64,000 nt of DNA from Phoenix dactylifera (taxonomy: Eukaryota; Streptophyta; Magnoliopsida; Arecales; Arecaceae). The stretch is from NCBI RefSeq assembly GCF_009389715.1, contig NC_052399.1:2930938-2994937 (forward strand), read 5' to 3'. A program made the position numbers and the translations under genes. Below the pieces are notes generated by a model, which did no database searches, was not told the DNA's origin, and was given only the letters and a program-made list of their open reading frames with translations. Positions 21,719 through 54,717 of this stretch are shown piece by piece. Positions within the stretch are counted from its first letter, which is position 1, and every line of letters begins with the position of its first letter.

Positions 21719-24700
21719 TTGTAGCTTTGAGTTGATGCAGCAGGTAATTTAGAATCACCTGCATATTTTGTCTTCCCAATAGTTCTAAGCACATCAAACA
21801 TCTAACAGTGAGTAAGCATTGTCTTCTTGTCTCCTGGTAATATTAATTTGGTAAAAAGATGAATATCGTTTTTCTTTTTATCATGTTGATTGCTCTTGTA
21901 TATTGCTTCGTTACTTTGCACACTCTTGTTGCAGATGTGCCTCTTAGGTGGAAACAAGTTTTCATATATTCATGTCAATTGTGTAGTGGATATTTCTGAA
22001 TTTAACCTAGGGAATTAAATGAGATGGTATTATTATGATTTTATCCCCTATAATACCAGAATCGAATGACAACGATCTTGCATCATAAGAATGTTGTCCT
22101 TTTCATTTACTCTGGGCATATTCGTGGCCAAACTATCACCTTCTAAAAATTGAATCAGCCTCTTGTATGATGGGGAATCATTAGATCTTTCAGATATATA
22201 TAGTTGTTTCTAATATTACTACCATACTGATCCATCATGTCATGATATGCTGAGTTAAAAAAAAACTGCTCGTTGCACTGTTGTACTATTTCAGAACATG
22301 AAATATCATCTGTTGCAGTTAAACCAGTTTGTTCCTGATGGGATCCAGTGCATTAGTGCTGGTATGATCACACCCATAACCAGTTATATATGATAAATGC
22401 TCACTTATTAGAATCTGCAAACCACTGATAAATTGTGTATTTTCTTATTCAATGCTTCCATATATTCATGGTAGATCATTTGAAATCTATAAATACTGTA
22501 TTCTTTGGCACCTGATTGTGATGATATTCACACTTTTGTTCGTTTGTTTTGACTTTTTAAGGAGTTGCTGAACGAACGTGTGTAAAATTTAAGATAGTGA
22601 TTGCAGATTAGTAATGCATAAAGAGCATGAAGTTGGTATTGCACGAGGAACATAATAATCATTAAAGATGGATTTGTACCTTGATTTTCAAAGAAATAGC
22701 CAATAGTGCAGGCAAAAGGGCCAAACCCCATATAAATGAGGAGTCACCACACTGACCTGCCAGAAGAAAATTTTATTCATCAATATCCATGGATGCCATG
22801 GTCTTGTAGTTGATATGGTACATTCTGGAAGCTATTTTTCAGAATGCTTACCAATAGCAGGTAACAAGATTTGATCAAAATCATGATTCATGACTATTCA
22901 AAATGACCCAAGAACCTTAATTTTCAACCCCAAAATTCTCTTTGCCAATTGGATCATTCTTAATTTGAAGCTCAAACAACTTCTTCCTCTCTTTTGTTGA
23001 AGCAAACTGAAATTATATTGCTATCTCATCTTGGAACTCATTGATACTTCATGCAATCATGCTACTTGATATGTATGTGCTCTCAGAGGAATGTCAAGCT
23101 ATAGAGCAAAATAATCAACTCATCCATGGAAACAGGCAGGAGGTAAACTATAGCGTGTGCATTATAATTAAAATTAAGATCTTAGTTGAAACTTGACATC
23201 AATGGACGGACCCTTACAAAGCCTGTTTGGCAATGCTTGGATCATGGTGGTATGCTGCAGTTCTTTAGCAACAGCCTTGTCTTGGGGCATCCAATGCATC
23301 TAGCCGAGTTATTATCTGAAGATTAGTGAATGGTAATTGTGCATGCTGTATTGTTTTGCTCTGATTTAGGGAAGCCGCTAGCTCCTTGGTCAATTTGTTG
23401 TAGCCGGCTATGCACAGTGGTGGATAAGGCAACTCTGTGGTTCTTGCACTGTAGTACAGTTTAAGAACCTTATTTTGGGGGTTAATGGAGCTTGCAACCT
23501 TAGTCTGGTTCACCACATAATATGATACATATTTTTAAAATTTCGTAGTTCTTTTATGTGTTTTATTGCTTGTGTTTCTCATTTCAGGAACCAAAACTCT
23601 TCCCTAACTCAACCTTTGATTGGTAAAGGTGGATGGGTTAATTAAGCCTTGAAGGCCCTGTGGCCGCGCAGAGGCTTTGAACTTGTCATCACCAAGAGAA
23701 GCATGAGTCCCACCCACCGTTCTCTTCTGCAATGATTCATCTTTTCGAAGCTCCTACTGCCCGAGAGTTAATGGTATTTTCATTTCTCTTATGTTGTTTG
23801 CTTTGCTTGTTATAATTCTCTTTAGCAAGTTGTGGTTGATAAAGGAAGCCAGGTATATATAGATATGTTCTCAACGTGTTCTGTTCCAATTAAGTTCTTT
23901 GCTCTATTGCCATGACCATGAGTGAACGTGGGAGAGCTTCTTACGTCTAACCGCAGCTGTAAGAAATTACCATCCCACTTCCTACGAACTACCATCCCGC
24001 AGCTATAACACTCTCTATCCCCCTTCCAGGCTCTTTATACTCTACTGGCTGGCATATTGTTAGGTGTCAGTCATTGATGTTGCTAAACCATTGAACCATA
24101 ATTGATTTAAGAGAGAGAGAGAGAGATTAAAACTTCGAATTCAAAAAAAAATGAGATATAATTGCCAAATACTTGTGTACACTTTAATCTACAGACGGGA
24201 GCATCATGGCTCAATAAAGTCCAAAACAGACTATTTCTATTTTTTTGAAAAAAAAAGACTTTATGACTTTTATAATATAAAAATAAAGCAGTTTTTTTTT
24301 TTCTAAAACCCCTATGTACAATATAACTGGTGATTTCTACAATAGGAGTTTTTTGGTTTTTTCCCTTTTTTTAATATGGCTGTCGAACAGTAGAAGCATG
24401 TTACCTATGGCGGGTTGCAAAACATAAATAACAAATCTTCAATAAGATCATAAGCTACAGCCCTGTCACTGCACTTCCTTTTTCTTGCAAAATAGTTTGT
24501 TTATATATATATATATATATATCTATAATGGAGACTGAGGAGTTAAACTTCTGCTATTCCTCCAAAATTTTATTAAAGAAAGGGGAAGTGTTGCATAGAA
24601 AAGGAAGGAAAATACATAGAACAAGAAGGAGCACAACAAGAGCCTCCGATTCGTCTGAGAGGTTGAAGGGGAAGTCGCAGTAGGAGATGCGGAGAGATTA

Positions 24701-25065: not shown

Positions 25066-25296
25066 TCAATGAGGCGGGGTTGGACACGGACCCTTTTGAT
25101 TATTGGGATTACTCGTGCAGCCCGATGATGTCGAGGAACTCACAGAGCCTTGTGGCAGGGAGTGCAACCACAAACCTGTAATGCTGTGCCACCGCTGCAT
25201 GTCTAATGGCCTTGCTGCATGAAGAGGCTGCAAACTCATAGTCACCGTGAGAAGAAATATAAGTACCCCAAAAACCTCTCCTCTGCATGTACTCAT
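25066..25296 (-). CDS. Secreted small-peptide precursor, CTNIP/SCREW-like
   Basis: A single-exon ORF of 76 aa starts at ATG 25296. Residues about 9-27 (FGVLIFLLTVTMSLQPLHA) form a signal peptide with a good cleavage site after LHA. A variable middle follows. The C-terminus is SSGCTSNPNNQKGPCPTPPH: two cysteines, a C-T-x-x-P-N core and a Pro-rich end. This is the layout I recall for CTNIP/SCREW phytocytokines, which are named for a CTNIP core and sensed by the receptor kinase HSL3/NUT in immunity and water-loss control. Precursor size, signal peptide and C-terminal position of the motif all fit. A TATA-like element lies about 100 bp upstream. Without an alignment, another cysteine-containing secreted peptide family remains possible. 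Confidence 0.68.
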   Translation of the reverse strand: MSTCRGEVFGVLIFLLTVTMSLQPLHAARPLDMQRWHSITGLWLHSLPQGSVSSSTSSGCTSNPNNQKGPCPTPPH

Positions 25297-25395
25297 TGGT
25301 CACAGAAGTCAGCTGGCTTCCTCTCTCCTTACAGAAAAACTTCAGTTTCTCTTACTCTCCACAAGACAAAACTGAGAGGGAAGCTGGAAGTCGTA

Positions 25396-25401
25396 CATAT
25401 A
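25396..25401 (-). promoter_or_regulatory. TATA-like element of the peptide gene
   Basis: The minus strand reads GGGTATATGTACG, 100 bp upstream of the ATG at 25296. That fits a leader of about 70 nt. Confidence 0.4.
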
Positions 25402-25406
25402 CCCAC

Positions 25407-26767
25407 AGAGGAGAGGGGATTTGCGAAATTTCTCATCAGCACCTAAGAGAGTCTTACGTAGAGAAATTTCTCTATCCTTTCCCTTGGAAATTGTAGTTCA
25501 AATATGTAAGTTGACATGTGTTTCCTTTCATTGTCTTTGGGTGGACCCAATGGACAGAAATGCAACCAAATTGCTAATTTTATTATTATTATTTTGTTAG
25601 TTTACCTTTTTCTTTCAGTTGCTGCATTGGAGACAAACATACCATAGAATATCAACGCAAAGATTTCATGAGCCCCAAGGATCAAAAGTCCAATGCCTGA
25701 GGGGCCATCCACCTTGAGACAATTCCACAGGCCATGCACTCTGACATTTACATGGCTATAATGACGGAAAGCCGGATTCCTTTTAATGTAAGTTTTCATG
25801 AAGGTGAGGTCTACCTGAATGGTAACTGTGGACGCAATTTCTCCAGGCCACGCACGCTGAAACTCCCACTAAAATTCACCTACCACTGCAGAAAGCAATT
25901 AACTGCATTATAAAATGATGGATGTAAGGCTACAGGAAGACCAATGTGGTCCCTGGGAAAGCTCTAAACACCAGCTTAGAATTTTAGCAGATCATTTCGA
26001 GTATAATTAATGGGGCAGCCTTTTGAAGCTACGATAAACCTACTTCATTTTAATCCGGATGTTATGGGTTCAAAATATGGAAACAATTTCTTTGCATGCA
26101 AGAATAAAATAACATATATCTGACCCTCCAATGATAGAAACCCATGCATTGGGATGTCCTTTTTTTATTATAATCACAATTGACACTCCTGTAATGCAAT
26201 TAAGTATAGTCCTTGTAACCTTCCCCTCTACCACTAAGCCTTTCACCATGTCAGCTTAAATAGTTCGTTCCATGATCAGGTTGTCTCAGCAGCCGTACCC
26301 AATAACATATTCTCAGTGAAGCTGTTTAAAATTATCAACATCTCTCCTGCACCTGCAAACTGGAATATATCACATGCTATGCTCTCATGGCAGTCTTGCA
26401 AGCTCTGAAGACTCCTTGCAAAGGAGGATTTGAAGGAGAACAGAGAAGAATCATATAATGTAACTTTGTGAACGAATCCAACGGAACTGCATTTGAATAA
26501 ACTAAAAGGTTGGGAAACACAGATGAGCTTTCACTGGCACAAATTTCAATCTTATTCATGGTCCATTACATACATTTCCTCTATTGCATAAACTCCTTGG
26601 TGCATCACAAATCAGGATTATACATAAAACACTCCAATGAAAATTAATAGGATCAGAAATTTCAAGGCTTATTTTCGTTGTTATGCAATTTCAATAATTA
26701 TATATCACTTGAAGATATCGAAGGACGATGTACAAACATTGAGGTTGTAGGAGAGACACTTACCAGA
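25407..26767. other. Spacer between the peptide gene and the WAHD-like gene
   Basis: No conserved coding region is seen. Part of it may be 3'UTR exons of the WAHD-like gene, because a strong donor (CTG/GTAAGTG) lies at 26762, just after that gene's stop codon. Confidence 0.35.
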
Positions 26768-32094: not shown

Positions 32095-32614
32095 CTTCAT
32101 AGGGTCTTTCTGTCCAAGTGCAGGTAGTCCGCATCTTCACAGACATGTCTATTTCACCAAGCCTCTCTCCGAGACAGTGCCTAAATCGTTACGCCTTTCG
32201 TGCGGGTCAGAACTTACCCGACAAGAAATTTTGCTACCTTAGGACCGTTATAGTTACGACCACCGTTCACTGGGGCTTCGGTCGCCGGCTCCCCTGTCAT
32301 TAGGTCATCAACTTCCTTGACCTTTCGGCACTGGGCAGACGTCAGCCCCCATACATGGTCTTACGACATTGCGGAGACCTGTGTTTTTGGTAAATAGTCG
32401 CCCGGGCCTGGTCACTGCGACCCCCTTTGTGAGGAGGCACCCCTTCTCCCGAAGTTATGGGGCTATTTTGCCGAGTTCCTTAGAGAGAGTTCTCTTGCGC
32501 CCCTAGGTATTCTCTACCTATCCACCTGTGTCGGTTTCAGGTACAGGTACCCTTTTGTTGAAGGTCGTTCGAGCTTTTTCTGGGAGTATGGCATGGATTA
32601 CTTCAGCGCCGTAG
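32095..32614 (-). pseudogene. Nuclear insertion of plastid DNA: 23S rRNA fragment (NUPT)
   Basis: About 520 bp read as the complement of plastid 23S rRNA, for example AGGGTCTTTCTGTCC, GTAGTCCGCATCTTCACAGA, CGTTACGCCTTTCGTGCGGG, CTTACCCGACAAG, TTCGGTCGCCGGCTCCCCTG, GTCGCCCGGGCCTGGTCACT and CCTTTTGTTGAAGGTCGTTC. It starts and stops inside the rRNA gene. Compared with the plastid sequence as I remember it, nearly all differences are C to T or G to A, as expected when methylated cytosines deaminate in a silent nuclear copy. It cannot act as an rRNA gene. Transfer through mitochondrial DNA is also possible. Confidence 0.9.
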
Positions 32615-53937: not shown

Positions 53938-54717
53938 TGTTACGGGGGAACTTAGCCACCATGCCCCACGTGACCGGCACGCGCGCCCAGGAAGACTACG
54001 GCAGCCCCTTGATCCAGCAATCCGACCCCGAGTCGGACATCTTCGGCTCCGCAGCCCGACCCCGAGTCGGCTGCCCCTTGATCCAGCAATCCGACCCCGA
54101 GTCGGACACCTTCGGCTCCGCAGCCCGACCCCGAGTCGGCTGCCCCTTGATCCAGCAATCCGACCCCGAGTCGGACATCTTCGTCTCCGCAGCCCGACCC
54201 CGAGTCGGACATCTCTCGACAACGACAGGCTATTCCCCAGAGGCACGCCGCAGCCTCCTGCTCCACTACTCCCTGCAACGGTTGTATCTGGCGCTGCTCC
54301 ACGATCCCCTGTAACAGCCGTACAAGGCGGAGCTCCACTACGCCCTGTCACGGCCGTACCCAGCGCTGCTCCACGACGCCCTGTAACGGCCGTGTCAGTG
54401 GCAGCTCCATCGTGCCCCACGATGACGAACCCCCCTGAAAGACCCCCCAGCCTGGTATATATGCGGCTGGAGGGAGAAGGGGGGGTAAGCAAGAACTTAC
54501 AGAGCATTTTCCTACTTGCTACTATTATCTCTCCTTCTCCTCCAATCTCCTCTGACTTGATCGTCGGAGGGCCCCCACTACCCCAGTGGTGGTGCGAGGC
54601 TTGCTTGCAGGTTTCCCGGTGGAAGGTGGAGCGCAATCAACACCAACCAAGGCAACTTAGACGGAATCCCGTTCACACCGCTGTGCCAATCGTTCTCGGT
54701 TTGGACCACCAGCAACA
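53938..54717. mobile_element. Solo LTR, 780 bp, inserted in the LINE ORF1 remnant
   Basis: The element begins TGTTACGGGGGAACTTAGCC and ends GACCACCAGCAACA, the usual TG...CA ends. GAGTC flanks both sides (53933-53937 and 54718-54722), a perfect 5-bp target duplication. A TATATAT box lies at 54456-54462. No internal region or second LTR is present, so this is a solo LTR left by LTR-LTR recombination. Removing it rejoins the LINE frame pieces EYWEK and DSILDI. Plus orientation is likely from the TATA box. Confidence 0.9.
54005..54211. repeat. Three 69-bp tandem units in the solo LTR U3 region
   Basis: CCCCTTGATCCAGCAATCCG starts units at 54005, 54074 and 54143. Each unit carries CCGACCCCGAGTCGG twice, a near-palindromic 15-mer. 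A second family of about 45-bp repeats with CTGTAACGGCCGT words follows at about 54265-54400. Confidence 0.9.

Follow-up and report, generated by a model that had tools for sequence, protein, structure and literature searches.

Stress signalling in plants involves the CTNIP/SCREW peptides, whose short genes are easily missed by annotation. This peptide type itself is already known. Passages of Rhodes et al. 2022 (PMC9191895) report that the last 23 residues of CTNIP4 are enough for activity, that both cysteines are required for receptor binding, and that HSL3 binds CTNIP and recruits BAK1. In the same passages, the name CTNIP rests on "relatively conserved residues", and a "confident" CTNIP is filtered by two C-terminal cysteines 9–11 residues apart. 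None of the monocot CTNIPs in that survey had been annotated before, and grasses yielded no clear CTNIP. These passages do not claim functional orthology of CTNIPs from other lineages, and they state that an infection phenotype was not seen in the mutants assayed. A role in stomatal reopening and water loss is described in passages of three reviews (PMC13056886, PMC13157962, PMC12907539).

The window, a stretch of 64,000 nucleotides (C8:2930938-2994937 in the contig labelling used here for family loci), carries on its minus strand an ORF of 76 codons at 25066–25296, which runs exactly from an ATG start to a TGA stop (25066–25068). Its translation is MSTCRGEVFGVLIFLLTVTMSLQPLHAARPLDMQRWHSITGLWLHSLPQGSVSSSTSSGCTSNPNNQKGPCPTPPH. 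Very probably, a secreted CTNIP/SCREW prepropeptide is encoded here by a small gene with a single exon, which is a divergent copy of a family that has been multiplied in tandem.

Organization of the ORF and its surroundings

The N-terminus of the ORF is hydrophobic and ends in HAARPL. Residues 1–27 (25216–25296, minus strand) form a predicted signal peptide with the core VFGVLIFLLTV and a Kyte-Doolittle value of 3.0 over an N-terminal 11-residue window, followed by a small-residue site, HA^AR; paralogues often read AARP there. The leader was judged by hydropathy and a crude script, the HA^AR cleavage site was placed by eye, and the script itself already accepts a site at residue 21. Residues 28–49 (25150–25215, minus strand) correspond to a variable middle, or pro-region, whose columns are poorly conserved in the family alignment A1 described below, except around ARP and GLxLxSLP. 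The C-terminal tail reads SGCTSNPNNQKGPCPTPPH and includes the two-cysteine core C60-TSNPNNQKGP-C71 (25084–25119, minus strand), in which ten residues separate the cysteines. Residues 50–76 (25069–25149, minus strand) are likely to be the active part, judging from their register with residues 48–70 of Arabidopsis CTNIP4; this segment was set by alignment to three PDB peptides (9w1s_C, 9wum_B and 9uob_C), and the ends of the mature peptide are accordingly putative. The original prediction had described a 76-codon ORF with a signal peptide, a variable middle and a C-terminal core with two cysteines, and this layout is borne out in each part, that of the leader by the crude test.

Elsewhere in the window, a PPR gene lies at 20.1–21.7 kb. 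Read-through Pfam searches of the plus strand at 23.0–32.6 kb and of the minus strand at 22.0–31.5 kb gave only two scores, both below the cutoff (E 0.079 and 0.11). A second candidate leader, an ORF of 41 aa at 23645–23767 (minus strand), reached E 0.0053 but only 0.18 with the held-out family profile, and has no core downstream; it might be a relic and is more likely a chance ORF. A partial bacterial-type large-subunit rRNA (300 bits) was observed at 32158–32499 on the minus strand, and is probably an insertion of organelle DNA in the nuclear genome. Long open frames contain, at 53999–54409, GC-rich sequence repeated in tandem with units of 69 bp (3 copies, 97%) and of 36/72 bp.

Paralogues in the same genome

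A search of the window protein against its own 773-Mb assembly (2391 contigs) yielded at least 40 matches including itself, at least 34 of them at E ≤ 0.005. The 39 other stretches comprised 27 intact, non-identical ORFs with the C-terminal core, four exact protein repeats (L021, L025, L030 and L034), which were left out, and eight further stretches. These eight were also left out: four were broken in frame by our judgement (L039, L042, L043 and L045), one had no core (L009), and three were rejected as non-family matches (L044, L046 and L047). The 27 ORFs and the window ORF make up the counting set of 28. The alignment and profile A1 consist of 26 rows, namely this set minus L016 and L019, with the window ORF included.

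The consensus of A1 is MxxxxRxLLxLxLVISSxQPLxAARPLxGExxxxxxGLxLESLPKGPxxPSGPSGCTSNPxNxGGPCPxx. Like the window ORF, the family shows a leader, AARPL, SLP(K/Q)G and SGCTSNPNN..GxCP, and its other members are at most 52% identical to the window ORF. Many members have GPxxPSGPSGCT, whereas the window ORF has GSVSSSTSSGCT at this place. The cysteine spacing was C-x10-C in 23 of the 28 ORFs and C-x9-C in three. The motif letters are altered within the family (CTSNP, CTHNP and CTSSN), and the cysteine pattern has changed in a few members: L029 has a shifted SCGT core and a cysteine spacing of eight residues, and the tail of L033 contains six cysteines. L040 reads GCN.

Two large contigs, C8 and C16, carry at least 19 intact ORFs, including the window gene and the altered L029, L033 and L040. 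A tandem array at C8:13.14–13.33 Mb (L051–L070) holds nine intact CTNIP-like ORFs, which lie at C8:13.14–13.29 Mb, and a profile scan over 200 kb recovered the same nine. Another six form an array at C8:25.98–26.03 Mb (L018, L020, L023, L028, L029 and L033), and three intact family ORFs are on C16. The window gene sits outside both large C8 arrays. Other family members are on contigs C65, C155, C242 and C338. Five of the six copies on C242 are 92–99.7% identical to copies of the C8:26-Mb array, and two copies on C155 are 97–99.5% identical to copies of the C8:13-Mb array. These near-identical copies may represent alternative haplotypes and were therefore kept out of the 19, a number that is a lower bound because the search scores only the best candidates. 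With a second query, 32 of 36 matches fell at known places and four were new (E 0.21–0.78, among the best candidates listed). A family profile built without the window sequence found the window ORF at E 1.3e-23 among 2,094 window segments, the next best being 0.18.

Of the 175 pairs with dS of 0.1–1.5 (378 pairs in all), 174 had an NG86 dN/dS below 1 (median 0.46); the pairs share branches and are not independent. Thirteen of the 27 pairs between the window gene and its paralogues had dS < 2, and in these dN/dS was 0.31–0.84; dS ranged from 0.74 upward. The branch of the window gene is long (0.62), those of L037 and L040 being longer, and the gene was placed beside the C8:26-Mb/C242 clade with weak support (81/79). 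By its CTSNP, its absent PSGP and its long branch, the window gene is a divergent, outlying member of the family. A segment of the window at 25124–25655 is duplicated on contig C17 with 94.7% identity over 532 bp. This recent duplication covers the 5′ flank of the window gene and the beginning of its ORF; the C17 copy has a stop codon after HSLPQAL and stops short of the cysteine core. C17 was rejected as a syntenic duplicate block, since over 30 kb only the 532 bp and one 149-bp piece matched at E ≤ 1e-10.

The long branch, the loss of PSGP and the truncated C17 duplicate could also fit a true CTNIP-like descendant that is decaying or not expressed outside the arrays. The 1 kb upstream of the ORF would agree with such decay, as it contained neither the W-box TTGAC[CT] on either strand nor a forward TATA[AT]A, only two TTGAC cores being found on the reverse strand. 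However, the reading frame is unbroken, the leader is preserved, and the two cysteines are present at the family spacing; a pseudogene of such age (dS ≥ 0.74) would be expected to carry stops. We therefore regard decay as unlikely.

Similarity to HSL3-associated peptides

The original prediction proposed the ORF as a candidate of the CTNIP/SCREW type, and the family profile supports this identity. A1, built from 26 own-genome sequences with no known CTNIP among them, was searched against 177,635 PDB sequences and ranked 9w1s_C first (E 1.4e-4), a peptide deposited with Arabidopsis AT5G25930, i.e. HSL3. The next match (E 0.38) was unrelated, and the CTNIP-like 9wum_B and 9uob_C did not appear among the matches at E ≤ 10. 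At this E value the similarity to CTNIPs goes beyond chance, and it is through the family profile that homology to known CTNIPs is seen. A precursor of 76 aa lies below the 150 aa allowed for CTNIP/SCREW precursors with an N-terminal signal peptide (crude leader test), and its length, the C-terminal position of its core and its C60-x10-C71 spacing agree with passages of PMC9191895. The window ORF reads CTSNP, sharing three of the five letters of CTNIP.

Printed CTNIP sequences were not found in the searched passages of the CTNIP literature, and CTNIP terms were not found in the searched portion of PMC11756074. A CTNIP consensus matched PDB 9w1s_C and 9wum_B, both with chains deposited as AT5G25930. 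The 23 residues of 9wum_B have cysteines at 11 and 21, matching the expectation for CTNIP4 48–70 (C58 and C68). The third peptide, 9uob chain C, is wheat TaNNS-C (residues 2–26, RGGGSAGAPNGCTNNPKHPPGGKCH). Its partner, the wheat kinase of chain A, matches HSL3 at E 7.5e-120, scoring below HSL1 and HAESA-type chains. TaNNS-C looks CTNIP-like and was co-deposited with this HSL3-similar kinase, despite grasses being reported without clear CTNIPs in passages of the 2022 survey. A literature search on TaNNS-C gave no paper on the peptide among the matches listed.

A profile of the three PDB peptides placed family members or pieces of them at ranks 1–10 of 8,362 segments with weak E values (0.093–2.8); two of the ten are broken pieces and eight are intact ORFs, including the window ORF at rank 7. 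One intact array member came 12th, below a non-family segment, and another was unlisted; among window segments, the window ORF had only E 0.23. In pairwise comparisons, the score of its mature part against 9w1s_C (45) was matched by 2 of 5,000 self-shuffles, those against 9wum_B and 9uob_C being reached by 11 and 4 of 5,000, respectively. The 28 family members scored from 25 to 72 against 9w1s_C. Among 210 window ORFs, the window gene was the best for each of the three peptides; for 9uob_C, a low-complexity ORF scored 45 against 48 for the window peptide. In PDB searches, the window sequence alone gave no CTNIP match. Its best single match there (E 0.003), a designed repeat protein aligned to a stretch outside the cysteine core, was rejected. 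Pattern searches returned 243 stretches from prokaryote genome contigs and 25 from viral contigs, none of them related to the window ORF.

A family member may also drift to another role, for example as a ligand for another subfamily XI LRR-RK or as a directly acting antimicrobial peptide. Two of the five motif positions of the core deviate from CTNIP, and the cysteine pattern is altered in some paralogues (L029 and L033). However, TaNNS-C reads CTNNP and was nevertheless deposited with an HSL3-similar kinase. Therefore, motif drift alone implies no other receptor class, and we consider a changed role quite improbable.

It is still harder to see in the ORF a precursor of another short-peptide family such as IDA, PIP, CEP, CLE or RALF. 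PSGP, present in many paralogues, is ascribed to CLE, CTNIP, PIP, CEP and IDA in a passage of PMC11331138. The window ORF itself has SSSTSS in place of PSGP. In the two Arabidopsis PDB peptides, N-G-C is preceded by SGSGP and RGSGR, and PSGP was therefore not treated as CTNIP-defining. Against the other families stand the fixed-spacing cysteine pair with the SGCT core, which are CTNIP features, the match of the window protein to 0 Pfam families at E ≤ 10, and the HSL3-associated peptide as the top PDB match of the family. Such a precursor is highly unlikely.

The pattern CTxxP with a second cysteine within the last 30 residues occurred in one of the 206 ATG ORFs of 40–150 aa in the 64-kb window, namely the window ORF. 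Sixty order-3 Markov windows gave 0.05 such motifs per window, and two of the 60 had one with a signal-peptide-like start, i.e. 0.033 per 64-kb window. This rate amounts to about 400 chance matches per 773-Mb genome, and the motif alone is therefore no proof of a gene; gene status is established because paralogues exist in the same genome. The possibility that the ORF arose by chance, its hydrophobic start and C-T-x-x-P...C tail being a coincidence of the kind seen occasionally in random windows, is refuted by these paralogues, which match across most of the ORF (E 2.7e-12; many places < 0.005) and form intact ORFs in tandem arrays elsewhere, and by its recovery with the held-out profile.

Proposed action and comparison with known peptides

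If the window ORF is a CTNIP/SCREW prepropeptide gene, its product would enter the secretory pathway and lose its leader near A27/A28, and a protease would free a C-terminal peptide of about residues 50–76. The C60/C71 core may then bind the LRR ectodomain of an HSL3/NUT-type receptor kinase, and the bound receptor would recruit a SERK/BAK1 co-receptor. Signalling from this complex through Ca2+, ROS and MAPK might tune stress, stomatal or root responses.

Arabidopsis has five CTNIPs, compared with the 19 or more intact ORFs counted here on C8 and C16. It is possible, though doubtful, that this strongly expanded repertoire has diversified for different HSL3-type receptors or stresses, with the window gene as an old, dispersed and specialised copy. 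If true, a diversified expansion of ligands would mirror the grasses, where HSL3 has been multiplied into paralogues and the 2022 survey reported no clear CTNIP. Among the paper titles listed for CTNIP or its gene numbers, none concerns such a family expansion; counts per species are given in the figure and supplements of the 2022 survey. The locus and the arrays name specific ligands with which the co-evolution of a peptide family and its receptor could be tested. The family profile built from them, which represents another plant, can be compared with the Arabidopsis CTNIPs and with the wheat peptide of the HSL3-similar kinase.

Like the window ORF, Arabidopsis CTNIP4 (AT2G31345) is a short secreted precursor, of 70 aa compared with 76 aa. 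The Arabidopsis CTNIPs and the window ORF share a C-terminal active region (predicted in the window ORF), two cysteines, and the register G-x-V-x-x-S...GCTxxP. However, nine residues separate the cysteines in Arabidopsis and ten in the window ORF, two residues follow the second cysteine in the former and five in the latter, the CTNIP motif is replaced by CTSNP, and the G/S-rich stretch by an S-rich one. Wheat TaNNS-C, like the window peptide, has a GCT-x-NP core (GCTNNP and GCTSNP, respectively) and a second cysteine near its end, with 11 residues between the cysteines compared with ten in the window peptide.
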